Shown here: piece by piece, positions 5,890-20,949 of the stretch
Layout of the letters: each line of letters begins with the position of its first letter
Numbering within the stretch: the stretch's first letter is position 1
Source: Chloroflexota bacterium
GTDB taxonomy: Bacteria; Chloroflexota; UBA11872; VXOZ01
DNA: 64,000 nt
NCBI GenBank assembly: GCA_028874195.1
Contig: JAPPLM010000042.1
Span: 62,001 to 126,000 of the forward strand
Direction of reading: 5' to 3'
Notes under the pieces: generated by a model
Database searches by the model: none
The model's input: the letters and a program-made list of their open reading frames with translations, nothing else
What the model was told of the DNA's origin: nothing
Position numbers and translations under genes: made by a program

Positions 5890-6861
5890 TCAAGATTTGT
5901 GCCCAGACTTGCTCCACGGGTACGCGAACCACTTATACCTCAGATTGAGAACGAGAAGCGCAAGTGCCAAACCAAAGATGTGCACGAAGTAGATAGTAAG
6001 CGCTGCCGCTTGGTCCGCATCGGCTACGAACAGAGAGGATGACGATGCTCTCCCGACCTCAAGGTTCAATACCAGCTTGTTGAAGATGTTTTGCATCGCG
6101 TGGTATCCCACCGCCAGTTCGATACCACCGTCGAGCAGCGTCATCACCGCAAGGAGTATGCCTGGGGGCATGAGCACGAGGGTAAGAATTACGACTTGAA
6201 TCGCCTCGAGGTCGGTGTTGGTAACAAAGTGTGGGACGGTGAAGAGAAACGCCGTGCCAAGGGCGAGAACCAGCCTGTTCCTGGTGAGCAGCGACAGACC
6301 TTGCAGTATGTAGCCACGGAAGAATACTTCTTCAGCGCCGGACTGAATCGAAACGAAGATAAGCACAGCTAGGACGAGGGGCAGATACTCCCGGAGGCTT
6401 TGCGCCTGGAAGGTTATCTCCACACCCGGCATGAGTCTGTACAGCAGTAGGACCACGCTGGCGACACACAGCAAGGCAAACGCGGCAAAGAGAACGCGGC
6501 TGTAGTCGAATGATGTCCTGCCGGTGGTTACCTGTGTCAAGGTCTTCTTCTGGAGAAGCATTGCGACGAGCCAAACGCCAATGAGGGCTCCCGCATGATG
6601 AAGGTAACGTAAGCCGAACTCAAGCAAGACAGAGACACCGTACACCTCGTTGTCACAGATGAACGCCAAGGCGCTGGATTTGCAGGCTTGGGAAACTACC
6701 AAAACGACGCCCAAGAATATGCCGATCACAGCGCTTGCGCCCAGAACCCACCGCCACCACTGGGTCAATCCGGTAGAGGCGGCAGCAAAGAACCGGTCAG
6801 TGGGTGTTTCGGGCCCATTGGGCGGTGATTGCGGGTCTTCGGGGGGTTGCTGAGGCTTCAT
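5890..6861 (-). CDS. CPBP-family intramembrane metalloprotease
   Basis: 323 residues with a Pro-rich cytoplasmic N-terminus (~1-30) and about eight membrane segments. It carries the ABI/CAAX motifs: GAEEVFFRGYILQGL (paired Glu and Arg), then FTVPHFVTN (His), then GYHAMQNIFN (His and Asn). The family comprises CAAX-processing-like proteases and, in bacteria, bacteriocin self-immunity or regulatory proteases. No bacteriocin genes are seen nearby, so the target is unknown. Confidence 0.87.
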   Translation of the reverse strand: MKPQQPPEDPQSPPNGPETPTDRFFAAASTGLTQWWRWVLGASAVIGIFLGVVLVVSQACKSSALAFICDNEVYGVSVLLEFGLRYLHHAGALIGVWLVAMLLQKKTLTQVTTGRTSFDYSRVLFAAFALLCVASVVLLLYRLMPGVEITFQAQSLREYLPLVLAVLIFVSIQSGAEEVFFRGYILQGLSLLTRNRLVLALGTAFLFTVPHFVTNTDLEAIQVVILTLVLMPPGILLAVMTLLDGGIELAVGYHAMQNIFNKLVLNLEVGRASSSSLFVADADQAAALTIYFVHIFGLALALLVLNLRYKWFAYPWSKSGHKS

Positions 6862-10559: not shown

Positions 10560-12020
10560 ATGTCAAAGCGCCCGAACATTGTCGTAATCATCACCGATCA
10601 GCAGCGCTCGGACTGCATTGGGTACGCGAACCCGGTCTTGGAAACGCCGTATCTCGACGAGCTCGCCGGGCGCGGCGTGAGGTTTACGCGGTGCTACACG
10701 AGTTCACCGTCCTGCCTGCCGTCGCGGGCCGCCATGATGACGGGCATGGACCAGTGGAATCACGGACGGCTTGGCAGTGGCGCAGGCCAAGACGCTTTGG
10801 ACTTCCCGGCGACGCTGGCGGGCGAGCTGATGAAGGCTGGCTACCACACTGCGAGCATAGGGAAGTCGGACCAGTTTCCCAGACGCGCGCTCTACGGGTT
10901 CTATGAAGCCGTGCAGGATAGCACGGGCCGTGGTCTCTGGACTGACTATATGGCTTGGCTGCGCGCGGAGACAGCCGGGAAAATCGGTGACCTCGACCAT
11001 GGTCTCGAGTGGAATAGCTTGATGGGCCGGCCAAGCCACTTGCCGGAACACCTGCACGCCACCCATTGGACCGTGAGCGAAGCGGTCAAGTTCATCGAGC
11101 GGCGCGATCCCACGTGTCCGTTCTTCCTGTGGCTGTCATTCACGCGTCCCCATGCGCCCTACGATCCCCCACCGGTCTATTTCGATATGTATAAGGACAA
11201 CCCTGATATTCCCATGCCGTCCATGGGCGACTGGGCCGCAGCATACGACGAGCCGATTGCCAGCACCACTGCTTGGCGCGGCCGGGCTCCTGACACACAG
11301 GTGCACCGCACACGAGCGGCTTACTACGGTAGCATCACCTTCATCGATCATCAGGTGGGCCGTTTCCTCTATGAGTGTAGCTGGCGCGATCGCGATGCCT
11401 TGCGCAACACACTCTTCATCTTCACCTCAGACCATGGCGACATGCTCGGGGACCACTGTCTGTGGCGCAAGGGTTACTCCAACGACGGTTCCTCGCGTAT
11501 CCCGTTCTTCATCAAGTATCCGGACACGTGGGATGAGGAGCGCGGTGGGTCTTGCGACGAGATAATCGAACTTCGCGATCTCATGCCGACCGTGCTTGAC
11601 GCCGCGCGGGTGGAGATCCCTGAATCCGTCGACGGTAAGAGCCTTCTTTCGCTCGCGCGCGGCGAAGAAACTGAATGGCGCGATTTCCTGCAAGGGGAAC
11701 AAACCAGAATCCATGGCTGGGACCAAGGCATGCAGTTCATCGCGACGAAGCGGGAGAAGTACACCTGGTTCCACCATACGGGAAAGGAGCGGTACTTCAA
11801 TCTGGTTGACGATCCGCAGGAATGTCGCGATCTCGCTGGGAACGCCGCGGCACAGGGCCGCATTGACGAATTGCGCGCATTGCTCGCCCGCGTGAACGAG
11901 GAACGGGGCGATCCGCGCGGACAGAACGGCCGGTTAGTTGTGCAGCCGAACGGCGCGCTCTTGCAATCCCCCAATTACGCCAAGTGGAAGGCCCGCGCGG
12001 ATGCTCGCATGAGCTTGTGA
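10560..12020 (+). CDS. Sulfatase (type I, formylglycine-dependent)
   Basis: 486 residues. The start follows an AGGAGGAAGAGG ribosome-binding site. N-terminal NIVVIITDQQRSD supplies the first metal-binding Asp; the activation motif SPSCLPSRAAMMTG places the Cys converted to formylglycine at residue 52; a later FTSDHGDMLGDH contributes more metal ligands. It hydrolyses sulfate esters, probably on carbohydrates. No export signal is evident, so it would act in the cytoplasm. No anaerobic sulfatase-maturating enzyme or FGE gene is adjacent. Confidence 0.92.
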   Translation: MSKRPNIVVIITDQQRSDCIGYANPVLETPYLDELAGRGVRFTRCYTSSPSCLPSRAAMMTGMDQWNHGRLGSGAGQDALDFPATLAGELMKAGYHTASIGKSDQFPRRALYGFYEAVQDSTGRGLWTDYMAWLRAETAGKIGDLDHGLEWNSLMGRPSHLPEHLHATHWTVSEAVKFIERRDPTCPFFLWLSFTRPHAPYDPPPVYFDMYKDNPDIPMPSMGDWAAAYDEPIASTTAWRGRAPDTQVHRTRAAYYGSITFIDHQVGRFLYECSWRDRDALRNTLFIFTSDHGDMLGDHCLWRKGYSNDGSSRIPFFIKYPDTWDEERGGSCDEIIELRDLMPTVLDAARVEIPESVDGKSLLSLARGEETEWRDFLQGEQTRIHGWDQGMQFIATKREKYTWFHHTGKERYFNLVDDPQECRDLAGNAAAQGRIDELRALLARVNEERGDPRGQNGRLVVQPNGALLQSPNYAKWKARADARMSL

Positions 12021-12303: not shown

Positions 12304-14781
12304 ATGGTAGAAATGCAATCCCTGAGTCGCACACTTGGTTGGTTTTCTGGGCTGGTAACGGCTCGTCCCTGGATGACGATCTTCGTCATCCTCAACATAA
12401 CCATATTCTTGACCGCCGGAGCGGTGCGTCGCGCGCCACCCCCCGGAGATGAGGCGATACTTCCTCCAGGGAGTACCGTTGCCGAAGCGATAAATGAGAT
12501 CGATCAGCTATTTGGCGACGCTGGCGAAGCTAATGTAGTCACGCTGCTCTTTCGCGGGAACGCTCTTACGCCCGGCGGTCTCGCGCAGATGGACGCTCTC
12601 ATCGATGAGATCGTCAGCGATCCGGAAGTGAGCGCGCTCTTGGCGCCGGTCGATCCCCTCATCGCGCCCGTGCTGCTGATCAAAGCCGTGCTTCAGGTGG
12701 ACAACGTGGCGTCCGTCACGCAAGCGCAAATCGACGCCGCCCGCGGCCCTCCGGAAATCCAGGCGGTGCTTAGCGCAATGACGGGCGCCGACGCGGACGG
12801 CACTTCAGTCGCGATTGCTATTATCCGTTTGCGCGACACGGGCGATGAGCGCATACAAGACGCCGAACGCAAGATCAGTGAGGCCGCGCTGGCGGCTGAA
12901 GGCCCGCTGCAAGTGAGCAGCATCTCGCCTGTGGTGATCGAGGACGAGTACAAGCGAGCGACGCAGGAGGGGATGGGACCGTTGGTGGGGCTGGCGCTCC
13001 TACTGATCGCGGGGTTGATCCTGCTCTTCTTGCGCACGCTTTCGGATTTGTTGCTCACGCTGGCCGGATTGCTCATTTCGCTGCTATGGATTATTGGGGT
13101 GGAGGGCTGGCTGGGACCCTACGCGCTGGGCATTACCGGCCCGCCCAACTCGCTGACGTCGATGGTGCCCATCATTGTGATCAGCCTTACGGTGGACTAC
13201 GCGATTCAGATCGTCTCGCACTACCGCGAGCAGCGTCACGAAGACTTGCCGGTGGCGGAGGCCGCTCGTGTGGGTCTGCGCAACGTCACCATCCCGCTGG
13301 TGCTGGCGGCCGTCACGACAATTGTGAGTCTGCTGGTAAGTCTGTTTTCTCCTATTGGAATCATCGGTGATTTCGGCGTGATCGCGGGACTGGGTGTGGG
13401 CATGACCCTCATCGTGATGCTCACGCTGCTCCCGGCCGGCCGGACGATCATCGACCGGCGGCGGGAAGCCCGGGGCAAGCTCAAGCAGCCCCGTCTGGTT
13501 GCGACTGCCTTGCCCGGTATCGAGGGATTGGCGACACTGCTGGGCAGGAGTGTCACACGCGCCCCGGCGCCCTACCTCGTCGTTGTGCTCTTGGTCACCA
13601 TCGGGCTGGGGTATGCGGCCACGGGGATCAAGTCGGAATTCAATATCCGCGACATCTTGCCGAGAGGTGGGAGCCTGCTCACGGATATGAACACCATCGA
13701 TGCGGCCTTTGGCGGCGCCACGGAGATAGTCAGCGTGCTCGTGAGGGCCGAGGCGACGGAGACCCGCACGCTGCTGAACCTGCGCGACCTCACGGCTGCC
13801 TTCGCAGATGAAGAACGCCGGCCGAGCGCCGCGGCGGGACCGATCCAGGCCTCGTATGAGTTGCTCGTACGCGACTGGATCACCGACAGCGGCGAGCCTA
13901 GCGACAAATATGACCCGGAACTCGCCGCACTCTTCCGGGAAGCCTCCGCCAGCGTACGGCTTGATACAGCACAGATGCAGGAATTGCTCGATAGACTCCA
14001 AGCCAAGGACCCAACCCTGGCGCATCTGCTGGTCAACGATCCGGCGGGCATTGACGCAATACTGCTTCAGTTCCCGGCCTACGCGGGTGACACCAATCAG
14101 GCGAAGCTCATCCAAGATTCCCTAGAGGACCTCTGGCTCGGTGATGACAACGCTATCGTAGCAACGTCCGAGGGTATCATTGGTATCACAATAACGGATG
14201 CCATTACAGAACGGCAGACGGAGGCGATTACTACGACTATCGCGGTGGCGCTCGGGGTCCTGGCGCTCTTCTTCTGGATCACGGTGCGCCAGCCGGCGCT
14301 GTCCATCATCGCGGTGGGCCCGATTGTGCTCGTGCTCATCTCGGTGCTGGGCACCATGGCGCTGCTGGGCATTCCGTATTCACTCGTCACGTCTATCATC
14401 ACGGCGCTCTCGGTAGGTATCGGCGTGGACTACACCATCCACGTGATCCATCGCTACCGCGAGGAATACGCCCGCGGGCGGGACCCGGAGCAAGCGGCCA
14501 TCCGGACGCTCGCGACCACCGGTTCGGCGCTGCTGGGTTCCGCGCTGACAACGGCGCTCGGGCTTGGAGCGCTCGTGGCTTCGCCGCTGCTTGCGTCCCA
14601 GCAGTTCGCCATCACGGCGTCGATAACGATCCTCTACTCGCTGATCGTGTCCATTCTGGTGGTTCCACCCGCGATGACGGTCTGGGGCGCATACCAGAAC
14701 GTGCGGCTGCGCTCCAAAGTGAAGCGCTGGGCGGACGAGCTCGACTTGGAGATCGAGGCCATAGATCAGCGGTACGTGTAG
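12304..14781 (+). CDS. RND/MMPL-family membrane transporter
   Basis: 825 residues with the two-repeat RND topology: a membrane helix at ~20-40, a large extracytoplasmic domain to ~215, five or six helices to ~390, a second helix near 425, a second soluble domain to ~640, then the last helical bundle. Both repeats keep the family motif: VISLTVDYAIQIVSHYREQ and VGIGVDYTIHVIHRYREEY, with the proton-relay Asp. Relatives include MmpL, HpnN and the sterol-sensing-domain proteins that move hydrophobic lipids. It ends 27 bp before the sterol methyltransferase gene on the same strand, so the two are probably co-transcribed. Confidence 0.9.
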   Translation: MVEMQSLSRTLGWFSGLVTARPWMTIFVILNITIFLTAGAVRRAPPPGDEAILPPGSTVAEAINEIDQLFGDAGEANVVTLLFRGNALTPGGLAQMDALIDEIVSDPEVSALLAPVDPLIAPVLLIKAVLQVDNVASVTQAQIDAARGPPEIQAVLSAMTGADADGTSVAIAIIRLRDTGDERIQDAERKISEAALAAEGPLQVSSISPVVIEDEYKRATQEGMGPLVGLALLLIAGLILLFLRTLSDLLLTLAGLLISLLWIIGVEGWLGPYALGITGPPNSLTSMVPIIVISLTVDYAIQIVSHYREQRHEDLPVAEAARVGLRNVTIPLVLAAVTTIVSLLVSLFSPIGIIGDFGVIAGLGVGMTLIVMLTLLPAGRTIIDRRREARGKLKQPRLVATALPGIEGLATLLGRSVTRAPAPYLVVVLLVTIGLGYAATGIKSEFNIRDILPRGGSLLTDMNTIDAAFGGATEIVSVLVRAEATETRTLLNLRDLTAAFADEERRPSAAAGPIQASYELLVRDWITDSGEPSDKYDPELAALFREASASVRLDTAQMQELLDRLQAKDPTLAHLLVNDPAGIDAILLQFPAYAGDTNQAKLIQDSLEDLWLGDDNAIVATSEGIIGITITDAITERQTEAITTTIAVALGVLALFFWITVRQPALSIIAVGPIVLVLISVLGTMALLGIPYSLVTSIITALSVGIGVDYTIHVIHRYREEYARGRDPEQAAIRTLATTGSALLGSALTTALGLGALVASPLLASQQFAITASITILYSLIVSILVVPPAMTVWGAYQNVRLRSKVKRWADELDLEIEAIDQRYV

Positions 14782-14808: not shown

Positions 14809-15846
14809 ATGCTACTCCGCAAACTATCCAGCGGGCTGAAGGCCCAATTTCAGGGGACGGACGTTCACAGTCGCGTGAATCGCTTCGATGAATGGATGGA
14901 CAGAGCGCGCGATGAGGACGCGGGCCCGACGGACTACGACCACACCGAAACCGTCAAGGAATACTACGACCTTTGCGGCGAGTTCATGGAGTTCGGTTGG
15001 GGTGAATCCCTCCACTTTGCGCCGCTGTCGCCCCAAGAGAGCCTGGAGGACTCCAAGACCCGTCACCAGCGGCTGATGATCGCCAAGTTGGAGTTGGGGG
15101 AGGGCATGACGGTGATCGATGTCGGTTGCGGTGTCGGCGGTCCGCTGCGCCGTGTCGTCCGGGAGGCCGGTGTCAGGGTAGTCGGGGTCAATAGTAATGA
15201 AATCCAGTTGGACAAGGCGAGATCGTTGGACGCCGAGGCGGGTCTCGACCATATGACCGACTACCTCGCATGCAGCTTCATGGACATGGATGCTATTGCG
15301 GACGACACATTCGACCGGGGATACGCGATTGAATCGACGTGCCATGCGCCGGACAAGGCAGGCGCGTTCGCCGAGATTTACCGCGTGCTGAAACCCGGGG
15401 CACTCTTCTGGGGCCAGGAAATGTGCATGACGGGCATGTTCGATCCCGGTGACGAGCGACATGAGGCCATCAAGAAAGAACTGATGCACGGCATCGCGCT
15501 CAAGGATATAAAGACGACGGACGAGGTGAACCGTGACCTCGAAACGGCGGGATTTCAAGTCATCGAGGGGATAGATCGGGCCGTTGGCGAAGACGATCCG
15601 ACCACGCCGTGGTATCGGCCCATGGAAGCCCGGCACGGCACGCTCGGCAACGCCCTTATCAGGATGCCGCTGGGCCGCAAGGCGATGTTCGGGGCATCCC
15701 GGCTGGCCGAGGTGCTGCGGGTGTTCCCGACGGGCTCCGCCCGTGTCATAAGGCTGCTGGATCGGACTGCCAACGCCTATGTCGCAGGCGGCAAGACCGG
15801 GATCTTCACGCCTCTGTACTGTTTCCTGGCCCGCAAACCGCTTTAG
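14809..15846 (+). CDS. Sterol 24-C-methyltransferase homologue (SMT/ERG6 family)
   Basis: 345 residues, matching eukaryotic ERG6 length. It keeps the SMT-specific regions: FMEFGWGESLHF (residues ~59-70; ERG6 has YEYGWGSSFHF), the SAM motif VIDVGCGVGGP (~102-112), YAIESTCHAP (~172-181) with the CHAP signature, and a C-terminal SMT domain ending YVAGGKTGIFTPLYCFLARKP-like. The reaction in the family is methyl transfer from SAM to a side-chain double bond of a sterol. A generic UbiE-type methyltransferase would lack the first region and the C-terminal domain. No squalene epoxidase or cyclase gene is in the window, so the sterol may be imported. Confidence 0.88.
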   Translation: MLLRKLSSGLKAQFQGTDVHSRVNRFDEWMDRARDEDAGPTDYDHTETVKEYYDLCGEFMEFGWGESLHFAPLSPQESLEDSKTRHQRLMIAKLELGEGMTVIDVGCGVGGPLRRVVREAGVRVVGVNSNEIQLDKARSLDAEAGLDHMTDYLACSFMDMDAIADDTFDRGYAIESTCHAPDKAGAFAEIYRVLKPGALFWGQEMCMTGMFDPGDERHEAIKKELMHGIALKDIKTTDEVNRDLETAGFQVIEGIDRAVGEDDPTTPWYRPMEARHGTLGNALIRMPLGRKAMFGASRLAEVLRVFPTGSARVIRLLDRTANAYVAGGKTGIFTPLYCFLARKPL

Positions 15847-15886: not shown

Positions 15887-17920
15887 TTAGACGTTTATCT
15901 CGCGCCTCTGCTCGGCAATGACGAACTTCAGCTTCTTGCTTGGTTTGTTGTTCGGCAGGGGGCTGAACGTGAGCTTGTGCCTGAACTTCTCGGGGGACAC
16001 CTCGAGCCTGAAGTAGTGCGCGATCATCAGCACGTTGATAGCCAGTTGCCGTTCCATCATCCGCGTGCCGAGACAGGTGTGCGTGCCCAGGCCGTACGGG
16101 GCGTACGCCCGGCTGCGATGCTCATAGCGCGGCGCCGCATAGCGGTCGATATCGAAGGTGAACGGTTCGGGGAAGGCGTCTTCCATGTAGTGCGAGGCGG
16201 TCGTGGCGATATGGATCCGCGCTCCCACCGGCAACTCGAAGCCCTCCACCACACAGGCGTTCATGACGTTGCGAATGGACATGGGCACAACCGGGTACAT
16301 GCGCATGACCTCCATGAGGAAGCGGTGCGTGACGTCCAATGCTTCCAGGGTGAAGTCCTCGCCCTCCGGATCGCCATTCTCAAATAAGGCGTCGGCTTCT
16401 TTCTGAATCCTTGCGTACATGTCGGGCTGCGCCGCCATGGCATAGACCGCGAAGCTTAGCGAATCGCCCAGGTACATGCTGGCAAGCAGCGGCGCCGAGA
16501 GCACAAACGCCAGATTAGATTCCGGCAGGAACTGCGGATCGCTGGCATGCAGGCTGAGCAGGTCATCCGCGAGATCCCGCGGACGACCCGCGCGATGGGC
16601 GGGGGTATGGACGCTTTGGACCCGGTTCACCACCTCTTCGACTCTTTTCGCCCGGCGTCTCATGCCGGGGGTATAGAGCATGAATTTGGGCAGGATCCGC
16701 GCGACGTGCGTGGACAGCCCTCGTTCTTTATATGCCATGAGGTCGTCGATGATATCTTGTGATTCTATGCTGATGAAGAACGGCGAAAGTTGCGCATTGA
16801 TCATCCGCCGGCTCAGCGACCGTGCAGGGTAGGATTCACCGACCTTCCAGTCCGCCATATAGGTCCGGACGCTACGATAGACCTCATCCAGTTGTGTCTC
16901 CAGCCGCTCGCGCGAATTTCCGGGAGACATGGCCTTGCGCAACCGGAAGTGGTCGGCGCCATCCACGGCAGGTATGAGCCCGGACGCGCCGTAGACCTTT
17001 TCGAAGTCGGTAAAGTAATCCCTCGCTCTCAGATAGTGGCGCCCGTTCTGTTGGACCCATTGATTGACGCGGGGCCCGGCCATGAAGATGAGGGGCTCGG
17101 AAAAGGGCGGGCGTAACTGAAACACCGGGCCGTACTCTTGCCGAAGCACCGCAAAGATCGCCGGAATGTTGCCGCTGCGGACATGCGGGTTGAGCAGCAC
17201 CTTGTGCAACGGGACAACCGGAATCTGTTTGGCAAGAGCGGACCGCTGGAGCAGCGGTCCCGCGAAACTGTTGGCAACCGCCTCGGCGACGGACCGGCCG
17301 ATCAAACTCATCCTGCAGATGAGTTTGATGCGTTCCTCTGACTCATCTTCAAGTTGGAAGATGAAGCGCAGGACGTCGCACGTATCGAGGAGGCAGATAA
17401 TGATGACATCTCTTAGGCTGGGAATCTCATTGTCGAAGATCGTCTTGTTCACGCGCGTCTTGACGAACTCAACCGCAGTGGTGCCGCGGGATCTAGCGTA
17501 AACTTCCGTTTGCCAGGAAGTGCGCGCCAGCGTCCAGAATTCGCCCTCGTGATAATCCAGGACATTTTGCTCGACCAAGCGCTCCAGAATCAGATCGATG
17601 ATTGCCGGAGCGCGAAAGACGAGCCGCTCGACCCAATACTGAACAGTTTGCTCTTCCGGTTCGTTTGCGATTCTCGCAAGAATGGGATCCAAGACGGGAT
17701 TGCCTGTCTCTGTCCGGTCCAGAACTTTAAGGGATTCCCCATCCGCGTCAATGCGGTATCTGATCAAGAGTTCCGCCAGTAGGGCGCCAATGATGGCGCA
17801 GTTCAAATTCCAGCCGGGCACTTGGTGGAAGTAGCCGGTCTCCTCGTTGAGGAACATCAGGACGAGTTCTTGCGGCAGCGTTAGCTCATGGGTGGCAACG
17901 CGGTCTGTTGTGACAGACAC
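15887..17920 (-). CDS. GPP34 (GOLPH3-like) domain fused to cytochrome P450
   Basis: 677 residues in one uninterrupted frame; P450s are normally 400-450. Residues ~12-225 match GPP34: LTLPQELVLMFL, GWNLN (Trp38), ALLAELLIRYRIDAD, TGNPVLDPILARI, TVQYWVERL and ILERLVEQNVL, each with a clear GOLPH3 counterpart. Residues ~235-670 form the P450: HFRLRKAM C-helix, I-helix LASMYLGDSLSF, ExxR as Glu537-Arg540, and heme loop YGLGTHTCLG with Cys616. A full AAGGAGGT site precedes the GTG start, and no internal start with a ribosome-binding site is evident at the domain junction. GPP34 binds PI4P in eukaryotes; here it may dock the P450 to a membrane. No redox partner is adjacent. It is convergent with the SMT gene. 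Confidence 0.9.
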   Translation of the reverse strand: MSVTTDRVATHELTLPQELVLMFLNEETGYFHQVPGWNLNCAIIGALLAELLIRYRIDADGESLKVLDRTETGNPVLDPILARIANEPEEQTVQYWVERLVFRAPAIIDLILERLVEQNVLDYHEGEFWTLARTSWQTEVYARSRGTTAVEFVKTRVNKTIFDNEIPSLRDVIIICLLDTCDVLRFIFQLEDESEERIKLICRMSLIGRSVAEAVANSFAGPLLQRSALAKQIPVVPLHKVLLNPHVRSGNIPAIFAVLRQEYGPVFQLRPPFSEPLIFMAGPRVNQWVQQNGRHYLRARDYFTDFEKVYGASGLIPAVDGADHFRLRKAMSPGNSRERLETQLDEVYRSVRTYMADWKVGESYPARSLSRRMINAQLSPFFISIESQDIIDDLMAYKERGLSTHVARILPKFMLYTPGMRRRAKRVEEVVNRVQSVHTPAHRAGRPRDLADDLLSLHASDPQFLPESNLAFVLSAPLLASMYLGDSLSFAVYAMAAQPDMYARIQKEADALFENGDPEGEDFTLEALDVTHRFLMEVMRMYPVVPMSIRNVMNACVVEGFELPVGARIHIATTASHYMEDAFPEPFTFDIDRYAAPRYEHRSRAYAPYGLGTHTCLGTRMMERQLAINVLMIAHYFRLEVSPEKFRHKLTFSPLPNNKPSKKLKFVIAEQRREINV

Positions 17921-18154: not shown

Positions 18155-19216
18155 GTGTCAAAGATGATAACCCAACTCAAGCCGTCTGAGAACGGCACAC
18201 TGCCATCCCCCTTTCCGGAGGGCTGGTACTTCATCGCAAGCCGCAAAGAAATAGAGAAGGAAAAGCTCATCCAGAAGACATGGATGGGCGAGAACATCGT
18301 CGCCTTTTGCGATGAGAGCGGGCGCATCTGCGTCGCTGAGGCCTACTGCCCGCACTTGGGCTCCGATCTCAGTCCTACCGCCGGGGGACGCGTCCGCGAG
18401 GGTCGGCTGGTATGTCCCTTCCATGGCTATGCGTTCGACGCCACCGGCACGTGCGTGGCAACGCCGTACGCTCCGCCACCCAGATATACTGGGCTGCGCA
18501 CCTTCGAGACAGAGGAAATCGCAGGCATAATTTTTGCCTGGTGGGGCATTGAGGGACGAGAACCGCAGTGGCGGTTGCCTGCGAATTCAGTGGACGAAGA
18601 CGGCTGGTGCGACCTGGAAATCCGCACTGTCCGCTTTGCCGGCCATCCGCAGGAGACATCGGAAAACGCGGTTGACTTGGCCCATCTGCGCTACATCCAC
18701 GGCTTTGGCGCCGTGGAACGTGTGGAACCGGTATCGGTGGACGGCCCCTATCTGAGGAGCCGTTTCAACTTCAGGTCCACGCGGTCGATTGCGAAAATCG
18801 CAAAACTCACGTTTGATCTCTCTGCCGATACCCACGTCTATGGACTGGGGTACTCGTTCGTGGATATCCGCGAACACTCAATCGGCATGGACATGCGCCT
18901 GTGGGTACTGTCGACCCCTGTCGACGGCACGCTCATAGAGATGTCGCTGGTCTCGCAAGTGCGGGAGATACGCCAGCCGAAGCGTTGGCTTGCCGGCCTG
19001 GGGTTTCTCCCGGTGGGGCTGCGCGCGCCCGTCATGAACAGGTTCACCGCGTCTCAGCAAGAGCGGGAAGTGCTGCAGGATGAGATCATCTGGAGCCGCA
19101 AGCGGTACCAATCCCGCCCGCGCCTCTGCAAGTCCGACGGCGAGATCACCAGGTATCGGCGCTACTGTGCCCAGTTCTATCCCGACCTAAGCGAGAACGG
19201 CAGTTCTGCTGACTGA
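18155..19216 (+). CDS. Rieske non-heme iron oxygenase (KshA/DAF-36-like)
   Basis: 353 residues from GTG 18155 (ATG at 18164 is an alternative). The Rieske cluster ligands are Cys65-x-His67 (CPHLGSDL) and Cys87-x-x-His90 (CPFHGYAFD). The mononuclear iron site reads ENAVDLAHLRYIHG with Asp174, His177 and His182, and the distal acidic ligand probably lies in LQDEIIWSRKRY. The C-terminal IW-x(4)-Y...RRYCAQFYP pattern is that of 3-ketosteroid 9-alpha-hydroxylase, cholesterol 7-desaturase and related sterol oxygenases. This supports a steroid-like substrate, though the exact position attacked is unknown. No dedicated reductase gene is nearby. Confidence 0.85.
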   Translation: MSKMITQLKPSENGTLPSPFPEGWYFIASRKEIEKEKLIQKTWMGENIVAFCDESGRICVAEAYCPHLGSDLSPTAGGRVREGRLVCPFHGYAFDATGTCVATPYAPPPRYTGLRTFETEEIAGIIFAWWGIEGREPQWRLPANSVDEDGWCDLEIRTVRFAGHPQETSENAVDLAHLRYIHGFGAVERVEPVSVDGPYLRSRFNFRSTRSIAKIAKLTFDLSADTHVYGLGYSFVDIREHSIGMDMRLWVLSTPVDGTLIEMSLVSQVREIRQPKRWLAGLGFLPVGLRAPVMNRFTASQQEREVLQDEIIWSRKRYQSRPRLCKSDGEITRYRRYCAQFYPDLSENGSSAD

Positions 19217-19293: not shown

Positions 19294-20676
19294 CTACGCC
19301 TTTCGAAACCGCCAGCCGTACATGATCCTGCCGTAATAGTTGAACATCCGCTTGGCCGCGGGATCATTGAAAGGGTAGTCCGCGCCAAGCTGCCTGGCGG
19401 TGGCAAGTCCGGTGACGAGGCAGGTCTCCTGGCTGTTGATCAGCGTGTGCGCGCCGCAGTGCCACGTGCGCCGCTTGCCCTGAATGAAGCGGAACAGGTT
19501 GACGAGCCACGCTACGTGACGCACGTCATGGACGATGTGCTGAAACCACCACTTCTTAACGACCTTCTGTTCATCAATAGTACTGATGGGGTTGTAGGTC
19601 ACCAGGCACGGCTTGTCCGAGCGGTGAGCCCACGGTTGCTGGTTGTGCATGATGTACGTGATCTCATAATTGTCCGGTCGCGCGCCGTACTGCTCGATGT
19701 GGTTGCTCCGCGTGGTCAGCGGCTTCACTTCATTGTCCGGCAGGACTGAAGAGTCGGAATGAACGACGGTATGGTTGTGGAGTTCGCTCTCATAGCGTAT
19801 CGACGAGAGAATGTAGCGCTCCAGAAACGTGGGCTTGTCGAGCATCATCAGCGTCTGGTTGGCATTGCTCGCGAAGATCACCTCGTCAAAGGTCTCCCGT
19901 TCACCGTTTTCGTCCTCGACCACGACGCCGGTTGCCTGACGATATACCTTGCGGATCGGGCGGTTGAGATAGATCTTGTCTCGGAAACCGGCTGACAGAT
20001 TTTCGTAGATGCGGCGCGTGCCCCGGTCCCACGTCTGCATCGGCGTAGCGGACTCGATGTCGAAGAACTCGAGATATCTTGCGAAGAGCGCCGCGGGCAT
20101 ATCGAAGACGTTCGTCGCCATGAGGAAATTGACGAACATTGGCTTGAGTATCTTGTATCTAAAGTCCCCGGAGAAGCCGCCGAGGTTCAGCAATGCTCCC
20201 ATGCTCAGGTAGTTGAAGGGATTCAAAGCGTTCAGTAGCTTCGACTGGGAACGGGTCAGACCTCCAAACCAATGGAGACGCCGCAGGAGTCTTTGGAACT
20301 GCGCAATCTCAGATTGGAGTTGCCGCCTGATGTCGGAATCGAAGTCGTGGGCGTACACCTGGCCGCGGTACTTCACGCTGTAGCTGAATTTGGTATCGAT
20401 CAACTCGATGCCAAACTGCTCCATCAACAGCAGAACGTGGTGATAGACCGAGGGTATGCAGGCGGTGACGGAAATATCGAAGGGAATCGTGCTGCCGTCA
20501 GCCTGCGGCATGTCGGCGGTAATGGCATTGCCGCCGATCTGTTCATGAGCCTCGAACAGCCGAAAGTCAAACCGGTCCGAGCTATGGTGCAGCGCCCAGG
20601 CGGCGCCCAATCCTGAAATACCTCCACCCACAATGGCAATTCGCCGTCGCATTGTCTCAGCCGCATCAGTTGGCAT
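19294..20676 (-). CDS. FAD-dependent amine-oxidase-like oxidoreductase
   Basis: About 460 residues from the ATG at 20676; an upstream TTG (20721) would add 15 residues, and an ATG eight codons further in is also possible. A dinucleotide-binding motif RIAIVGGGISGLGAAWAL is followed by LFEAHEQIGGNA, typical of flavin amine oxidases, desaturases and protoporphyrinogen-oxidase-like proteins. The C-terminal WHCGAHT...GLATARQLGADYPF completes the FAD site. Such flavoproteins oxidise or desaturate lipids and carotenoids. It is convergent with the Rieske gene (77 bp between the stops) and is grouped with the sterol-type island by position only. Confidence 0.8.
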   Translation of the reverse strand: MPTDAAETMRRRIAIVGGGISGLGAAWALHHSSDRFDFRLFEAHEQIGGNAITADMPQADGSTIPFDISVTACIPSVYHHVLLLMEQFGIELIDTKFSYSVKYRGQVYAHDFDSDIRRQLQSEIAQFQRLLRRLHWFGGLTRSQSKLLNALNPFNYLSMGALLNLGGFSGDFRYKILKPMFVNFLMATNVFDMPAALFARYLEFFDIESATPMQTWDRGTRRIYENLSAGFRDKIYLNRPIRKVYRQATGVVVEDENGERETFDEVIFASNANQTLMMLDKPTFLERYILSSIRYESELHNHTVVHSDSSVLPDNEVKPLTTRSNHIEQYGARPDNYEITYIMHNQQPWAHRSDKPCLVTYNPISTIDEQKVVKKWWFQHIVHDVRHVAWLVNLFRFIQGKRRTWHCGAHTLINSQETCLVTGLATARQLGADYPFNDPAAKRMFNYYGRIMYGWRFRKA

Positions 20677-20949
20677 GGTTTTCAATCCGGTTTCCCCCGT
20701 CGGCTGCCGTCCGGTCGGCAACGAAAGTTCGGATCAGGGAATCGGGACGCCGCATGCGGTGCGCTCGGCGTTTTCGAGAAAACCATCGCGCCGGGCCGCT
20801 CTCGGTACAAAGACTAAAAATCTGGACTACGCTTAGCATAGCGGATGATGGTGGGAAGTGTGCGCTTGGCCAGGGCGCTGCTGTTTGGGCGAACAACCGA
20901 GTCCGGGGTCACGTAGTGAGTTGAGAGAATTGTTAGTTTCAGGCATGGA

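Follow-up and report, generated by a model that had tools for sequence, protein, structure and literature searches.

A divergent sterol methyltransferase relative and its putative sterol-tailoring gene module in sponge-type bacteria

In this work, we focused on a window of 64,000 nucleotides (i.e. the whole stretch of DNA analysed) from a Chloroflexota genome of 3.5 Mb that is 98.3% complete. Five neighbouring genes of this window, encoding a transporter, a methyltransferase, a P450 fusion, a Rieske oxygenase and a flavoprotein, are listed in Table 1. The methyltransferase, hereafter P0001, is read from an unbroken frame of 345 aa running from the ATG at 14809 to the stop at 15846. A ribosome-binding-like stretch (GGAAAG) lies upstream of it, the gap to the MMPL gene on the same strand is 27 bp, and the two genes probably form an operon. 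The P450 gene is convergent with P0001, with 40 bp between them.

Table 1. Genes of the module within the analysed window
Feature	Position	Strand	Basis
MMPL/HAE3-type transporter, sterol-sensing-domain match	12304..14781	+	PF03176, PF12349
Divergent SMT-superfamily methyltransferase P0001	14809..15846	+	PF08498 and PF08241; homologues; active-site changes
GPP34 (N-terminal) and cytochrome P450 (C-terminal) fusion	15887..17920	-	PF05719, PF00067
KshA/SdmA-type Rieske oxygenase	18155..19216	+	PF19298, PF00355, motifs
FAD-dependent amine-oxidase-fold oxidoreductase (flavoprotein)	19294..20721	-	PF01593

Two other genes of the window were recorded. An arylsulfatase above the NCBIfam cut-off (10560-12020), which may act on sulfated host compounds, lies upstream of the module; it is in place in one congener (G087, 98% identity) and not in other genera. 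A CAAX-type membrane protease that weakly matches the myxosortase group (MrtC) is encoded at 5890-6861. The sulfatase, GFO, GH57 and GT neighbours were considered as module parts and rejected, as they are not conserved outside the genus. Eukaryotic contamination was ruled out, the window carrying gyrB, carAB, recG, pcrA and murG, and it is also contradicted by syntenic congeners of 82-89% nucleotide identity. A chance frame or frame artefact was ruled out for P0001, which is intact in 80 other loci (best 80 of 109 homologues).

P0001 passes the curated cut-offs of both SMT-superfamily domains, i.e. the Rossmann methyltransferase domain PF08241 and the Sterol_MT_C domain PF08498 (E 8.9e-15; 55 bits against a Pfam cut-off of 21.7), and it is the only Sterol_MT_C protein of the source genome. 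As controls, yeast and plant SMT match Sterol_MT_C, and gamma-tocopherol methyltransferase (TMT) and UbiE do not. The yeast Erg6 and Arabidopsis SMT1 reference sequences score about 100 bits each for Sterol_MT_C; aligned with them over its full length, P0001 is 35% identical to Erg6 and 40% to SMT1. An earlier note on this DNA had pointed out the GWGESLHF stretch, the CHAP motif and the C-terminal SMT domain, all of which were found again (residues 63-70; YAIESTCHAP, residues 172-181; PF08498), together with a SAM motif (IDVGCGVGGP). The AlphaFold model (pLDDT 77.8, pTM 0.80), whose weak stretches are residues 65-69 and 261-286, has a class I natural-product methyltransferase fold, the nearest structures being sarcosine/dimethylglycine methyltransferase, MitM, AtmM and RebM, with geranyl and farnesyl diphosphate C-methyltransferases also near in the fold search. 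Judged by its sequence, P0001 is a bacterial member of the SMT superfamily, its domain content being closer to that of SMTs than to that of tocopherol- or UbiE-type methyltransferases.

The clade studied here comprises P0001 and the best 80 of 109 homologues, which are 61-82% identical to P0001 in the homologue scan (60-82% in the alignment) and come from MAGs of sponge-symbiont type; it was scanned using patterns derived from P0001. Clade members were aligned with yeast Erg6, Arabidopsis SMT1 and canonical SMTs of the same genomes. Region I reads MEFGWGESLHF in P0001 versus YEYGWGSSFHF in yeast, so that Tyr81 is replaced by Met60 and Phe89 by Leu68, while F62, W64, H69 and F70 are kept; yeast YEW (223-225) is replaced by QEM and GDGIP (248-252) by GIALK. 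In yeast numbering, Y81M, F89L, F94L, Y223Q, L362C and W225M are present in all 81 members (P0001 and the best 80 of 109) and D249I in 80 of them; the L362 position is Phe in plant SMT. Nearly all aligned SMTs share the SAM motif, H90, D125, E195, E209, W286 and a C-terminal FTP segment. The claims that all SMT-specific regions are present and that P0001 bears a full eukaryote-type signature therefore did not hold, given the altered region I, the replaced YEW and GDGIP segments and the Met shared by the whole clade in place of Tyr81. Of the proposed bacterial sterol methyltransferase, membership of the SMT superfamily stands (PF08498, 35-40% identity) and the full 24-SMT signature falls. Region I (Tyr81-Phe91) gives cation-pi stabilisation in C24 methylation (PMC5711494), and a nematode SMT relative devoid of the region I aromatics, 4-SMT, methylates C4 of 3-oxo sterols (PMC6997595). 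By its residues P0001 appears as an intermediate, with two aromatic positions of region I lost and W64, F62, H69 and F70 retained, so the position of methylation is not fixed by the sequence.

Canonical bacterial SMTs keep the eukaryotic residues at most positions changed in the divergent clade. About a third of the clade genomes (some 18 of 50) carry one beside the divergent SMT, and at two loci (L005 and L050) the two genes lie a few kb apart. In a tree inferred without UbiE or gamma-TMT outgroups, the divergent clade forms one side of a branch with an SH-aLRT of 100. Rooting with these outgroups was dropped, as their branches of 8-10 changes per column were too long and made the root meaningless. 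Another two bacterial SMTs, L098 and L111, form a pair on a long branch; they come from the genomes of L074 and L069.

We further gained insight into the genes that accompany the divergent SMT. The P450 domain of the fusion has a haem site (YGLGTHTCLG), gives general P450 matches in the fold search, and has CYP51 as its nearest solved relatives in the PDB; the CYP51 I-helix motif [AG]Gx[DEH][TS] was not found in it, the corresponding stretch being LGDSLS. The fusion lies at 46 of the 80 loci, full-length in 43 (best 80 of 109), and genome-wide in all 50 genomes of the SMT clade. Its N-terminal half is a Golgi phosphoprotein 3-type domain, and the joining of GPP34 to a P450 is conserved at full length across several phyla. 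GOLPH3-type domains bind phosphoinositides in eukaryotes; by analogy, this half of the fusion may anchor the P450 at a lipid surface. In one congener (G089, L186:7760-9790), the frame is interrupted by a single TAA and split near residue 77, possibly through decay or an assembly error, and the SMT is intact. Within the open-access literature, we found neither a paper on this fusion nor a description of the module.

The Rieske protein has an intact CxH...CxxH motif, D..H....H iron site and KshA_C domain, and KshA is its nearest solved relative; its gene is present at 37 of the 80 SMT loci (best 80 of 109). A KshA group restricted to sponge MAGs has been described (PMC5790920), which perhaps includes this protein. 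The flavoprotein, whose true start is probably at about residue 16-25 of the frame, has homologues of 70-86% identity in other genomes; it is near the SMT at 20 of the 80 loci (best 80 of 109), and 44 of the 50 SMT genomes encode it. In genome G050 (L124), a 79% identical copy has a canonical SMT on one side and a squalene epoxidase-cyclase fusion on the other, which ties the module to sterols. This locus (L124:12260-18381) belongs to a gammaproteobacterial MAG and is a cluster for sterol synthesis, made of the canonical SMT, the flavoprotein and a squalene epoxidase-oxidosqualene cyclase fusion. The module families recur around the SMT in differing orders and strands. In a Dadabacteria MAG (L150:3956-10100), another SMT type (46% to canonical bacterial SMTs) lies beside GPP34-P450 and flavoprotein genes; the module can therefore pair with different SMTs.

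A pump gene flanks the SMT at 45 of the 80 loci (best 80 of 109). It is of the MMPL type in 20 loci, all from Chloroflexota, and of the AcrB RND type in 25, all from Pseudomonadota, Acidobacteriota or Gemmatimonadota; none of these best 80 of 109 loci has both. An adaptor and an outer membrane channel are sometimes within reach at the RND loci. Such a choice of pump by phylum would suit a product crossing different envelopes, in a direction that we infer.

Co-occurrence was surveyed in 41 genomes of the source's own class, 20 with and 21 without the divergent SMT. Genomes with the SMT encode the P450 in 20/20 cases, the flavoprotein in 19/20 and the Rieske oxygenase in 19/20, versus 3/21 each in those without (Fisher p from 7.5e-9, for the P450, to 1.3e-7, uncorrected for kinship). 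Around 13 canonical-type SMT genes lying apart from a divergent SMT (L135-L147), neither GPP34-P450 nor Rieske genes were found. Three congeners (G086, G087 and G090) have the MMPL, P450, Rieske and flavoprotein genes in the same order with 82-93% protein identity, and 200-250 bp of unrelated sequence at the SMT site between MMPL and P450; no SMT was found elsewhere in these genomes (G087 and G090 being 95-97% complete). Loss of the SMT is the simpler reading, since distant families (L005, L008 and L010) have it at this same place in the MMPL-P450 interval. As the SMT alone is missing from these congeners, it would be an optional step. Another congener, G088, is without the entire module.

Identity to the window's SMT exceeds that of GyrB by at least 10 points in 50/50 genomes (median 18), and flavoprotein identity exceeds it by at least 13 points in the 42/42 compared (median 80.5% versus 55%). 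Phylum labels require 15 changes on the clade tree, the minimum being 6. Taken with the shuffled gene order and patchy presence, these values favour transfer of the module between symbionts, the alternatives being strong constraint, mislabelled bins and paralogy. Nine loci (L015, L018, L019, L022, L029, L039, L041, L049 and L052) belong to bins of the Aplysina aerophoba metagenome (PMC5649159), and the RHO, COS and IRC bin names presumably stand for the Rhopaloeides, Coscinoderma and Ircinia sponges of PMC8163846. Among the best 80 of 109 loci, none of those whose records were read was clearly from a non-sponge habitat.

Neither squalene epoxidase (PF08491) nor squalene/oxidosqualene cyclase (PF13243) had a match in the source genome, at the completeness given above. 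Cyclase-domain matches occur in 25/50 clade genomes, from which sterol synthesis in half of them was considered and rejected, most proving to be DxDD hopene-type. The full-length cyclases read were either of this type or five proteins of 1.1-1.3 kaa with the oxidosqualene DCTAE motif, and two more proteins from clade genomes have the same length and score as those five. One long cyclase-type protein that was checked is a squalene epoxidase and cyclase fusion. From these sequences, about 7 of the 50 clade genomes could make sterols, absences being read from MAGs, whose incompleteness limits them. Because the source genome is without epoxidase and cyclase, a sterol of the host is the likely substrate of P0001. 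The genomic context stressed by the earlier note proved informative in another way, as a probable tailoring and transport module instead of a sterol synthesis cluster; as its genome lacks both squalene epoxidase and cyclase, it says little on de novo bacterial steranes.

We propose, with somewhat more confidence than doubt, that these genes form a transferable sterol-tailoring module, by which a host sterol is taken up, oxidised, methylated by the remodelled SMT and exported or moved by the pump. The bacterium would import a sterol that the sponge has produced, the GPP34-P450 fusion, Rieske oxygenase and flavoprotein would oxidise or desaturate it, P0001 would add a methyl from SAM as an optional step, and the adjoining MMPL pump would carry the product through the membrane or release it from there. 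The module thus described probably modifies and transports host-derived sterols in many unrelated sponge-type bacteria. We infer the sterol substrate, its host origin, the order of steps, the transport direction and the methylation position. Several observations weigh against this reading: some other terpenoid could be the substrate of the P450, Rieske oxygenase and flavoprotein, direction is not readable from MMPL or RND genes, and the congeners without SMT show that the rest of the module can work alone. The host-sterol part is further weakened by the epoxidase-cyclase-type proteins of about 7/50 clade genomes, which make another source possible.

As to the reaction, P0001 may be a true sterol 24-C-methyltransferase acting on host sterols with one or several alkylations, the replaced aromatics changing only the product outcome; we hold this to be possible, at somewhat less than even chances. 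It retains W64, H69 and F70, and its position 62 is still aromatic; the CHAP segment, E175, E189 and the C-terminal domain are likewise preserved. Additionally, 8/10 sponge-symbiont and 12/14 environmental SMTs alkylate C24 (PMC10070321), and the threshold of that study (30% identity to yeast) would admit the clade, members of which may be among those tested. However, Tyr81, Phe89, Tyr223 and Trp225 are lost in 81/81 members (P0001 and the best 80 of 109), and the canonical SMTs in about 18/50 of the genomes argue against mere redundancy.

Methylation of a sterol elsewhere, be it at C26 of the side chain, at C4 in the ring of a 3-oxo sterol or on a hydroxyl introduced by the module oxygenases, seems rather unlikely to us. 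The nematode 4-SMT acts on 3-oxo sterols via an enolate (PMC6997595); its pathway also has a Rieske enzyme, DAF-36, by analogy only, and the module supplies oxygenases of its own. The main sterol of Aplysina aerophoba, the host of the nine bins above, is aplysterol, a 26-methyl sterol (PMC10070321). Yet region I is lost only in part, the clade is also present in hosts for which 26-methyl sterols are not named, and P0001 is 35% identical to Erg6 versus 21% for the 4-SMT.

The wider proposal, that the clade methylates sterols at a new position (e.g. as the sought C26 alkylating enzyme, or on a ring or oxygen once the module oxygenases have acted) in a host-sterol tailoring module spread over at least six phyla of sponge symbionts, is speculative, and we would give it roughly one chance in a handful. 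If true, some unusual sponge sterols would be finished by bacteria. If a widespread and transferable bacterial module alters host sterols in the absence of bacterial sterol synthesis, holobiont sterols would be predicted neither by host genes nor by searches for bacterial cyclases; sponge sterols and their fossil steranes serve as the earliest evidence of animals. The five-gene set, with its natural SMT-minus relatives, offers a direct test of bacterial tailoring and of the missing C26 methylase.

That P0001 is an SMT-like natural-product methyltransferase working on another cyclic terpenoid or a polyketide is improbable: in fold searches it comes closest to natural-product and terpene C/N/O-methyltransferases, and its active site is rebuilt, but the Sterol_MT_C domain, the sterol-sensing-domain match of the pump, the CYP51-like P450, the KshA-like oxygenase and the occurrence of the flavoprotein in an epoxidase-cyclase cluster speak for sterols. 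Least probable of all is a steroid breakdown pathway opened by the KshA-type oxygenase and a side-chain P450, which the KshA family of the Rieske protein, the KshA groups proper to sponge MAGs and the richness of sponges in steroid degraders (PMC5790920) would favour, but to which a methyltransferase and an adjoining pump are ill-suited, ring-cleavage genes being absent among the recurrent neighbours of the SMT.

The tailoring module, our preferred reading, can finally be set beside known systems. P0001 shares with Erg6 and plant SMT1 the two-domain architecture, SAM motif, CHAP segment, C-terminal SMT domain and 35-40% identity; it differs in that their Tyr81, Phe89, Tyr223, Trp225 and Asp249 are replaced throughout its clade and that its genome is without epoxidase or cyclase. 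The nematode 4-SMT STRM-1 (PMC6997595) is likewise an SMT relative with an altered region I, in a Rieske oxygenase pathway acting on dietary sterols, whereas it is 21% identical to Erg6 against 35% for P0001. As the earlier note had said, bacterial SMTs were already reported: Brown 2023 found them functional in vitro, those of sponge symbionts included, with C24 alkylation up to a 24-isopropyl chain, some coming from genomes without de novo synthesis (e.g. Chlamydiae) and 26-methylating enzymes being left unidentified (PMC10070321). A bacterial SMT alone is therefore not news, and what is new here is the remodelled SMT subfamily and its module. The SMTs of that study resemble P0001 in that they are bacterial, some coming from sponge symbionts and some from genomes that have no de novo pathway, but for 13/24 of theirs a cyclase is encoded in the same cluster or MAG. 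Among the symbionts of Ircinia, over ten phyla, an enrichment of SMTs and clusters for steroid synthesis have been reported (PMC9531527). These ERG24-CYP51-ERG7 clusters, often SMT-flanked, share with our module the kind of host, the many phyla and a proposed transfer; they are synthesis operons, whereas the module of P0001 combines, without a cyclase, GPP34-P450, Rieske oxygenase, flavoprotein, pump and SMT.
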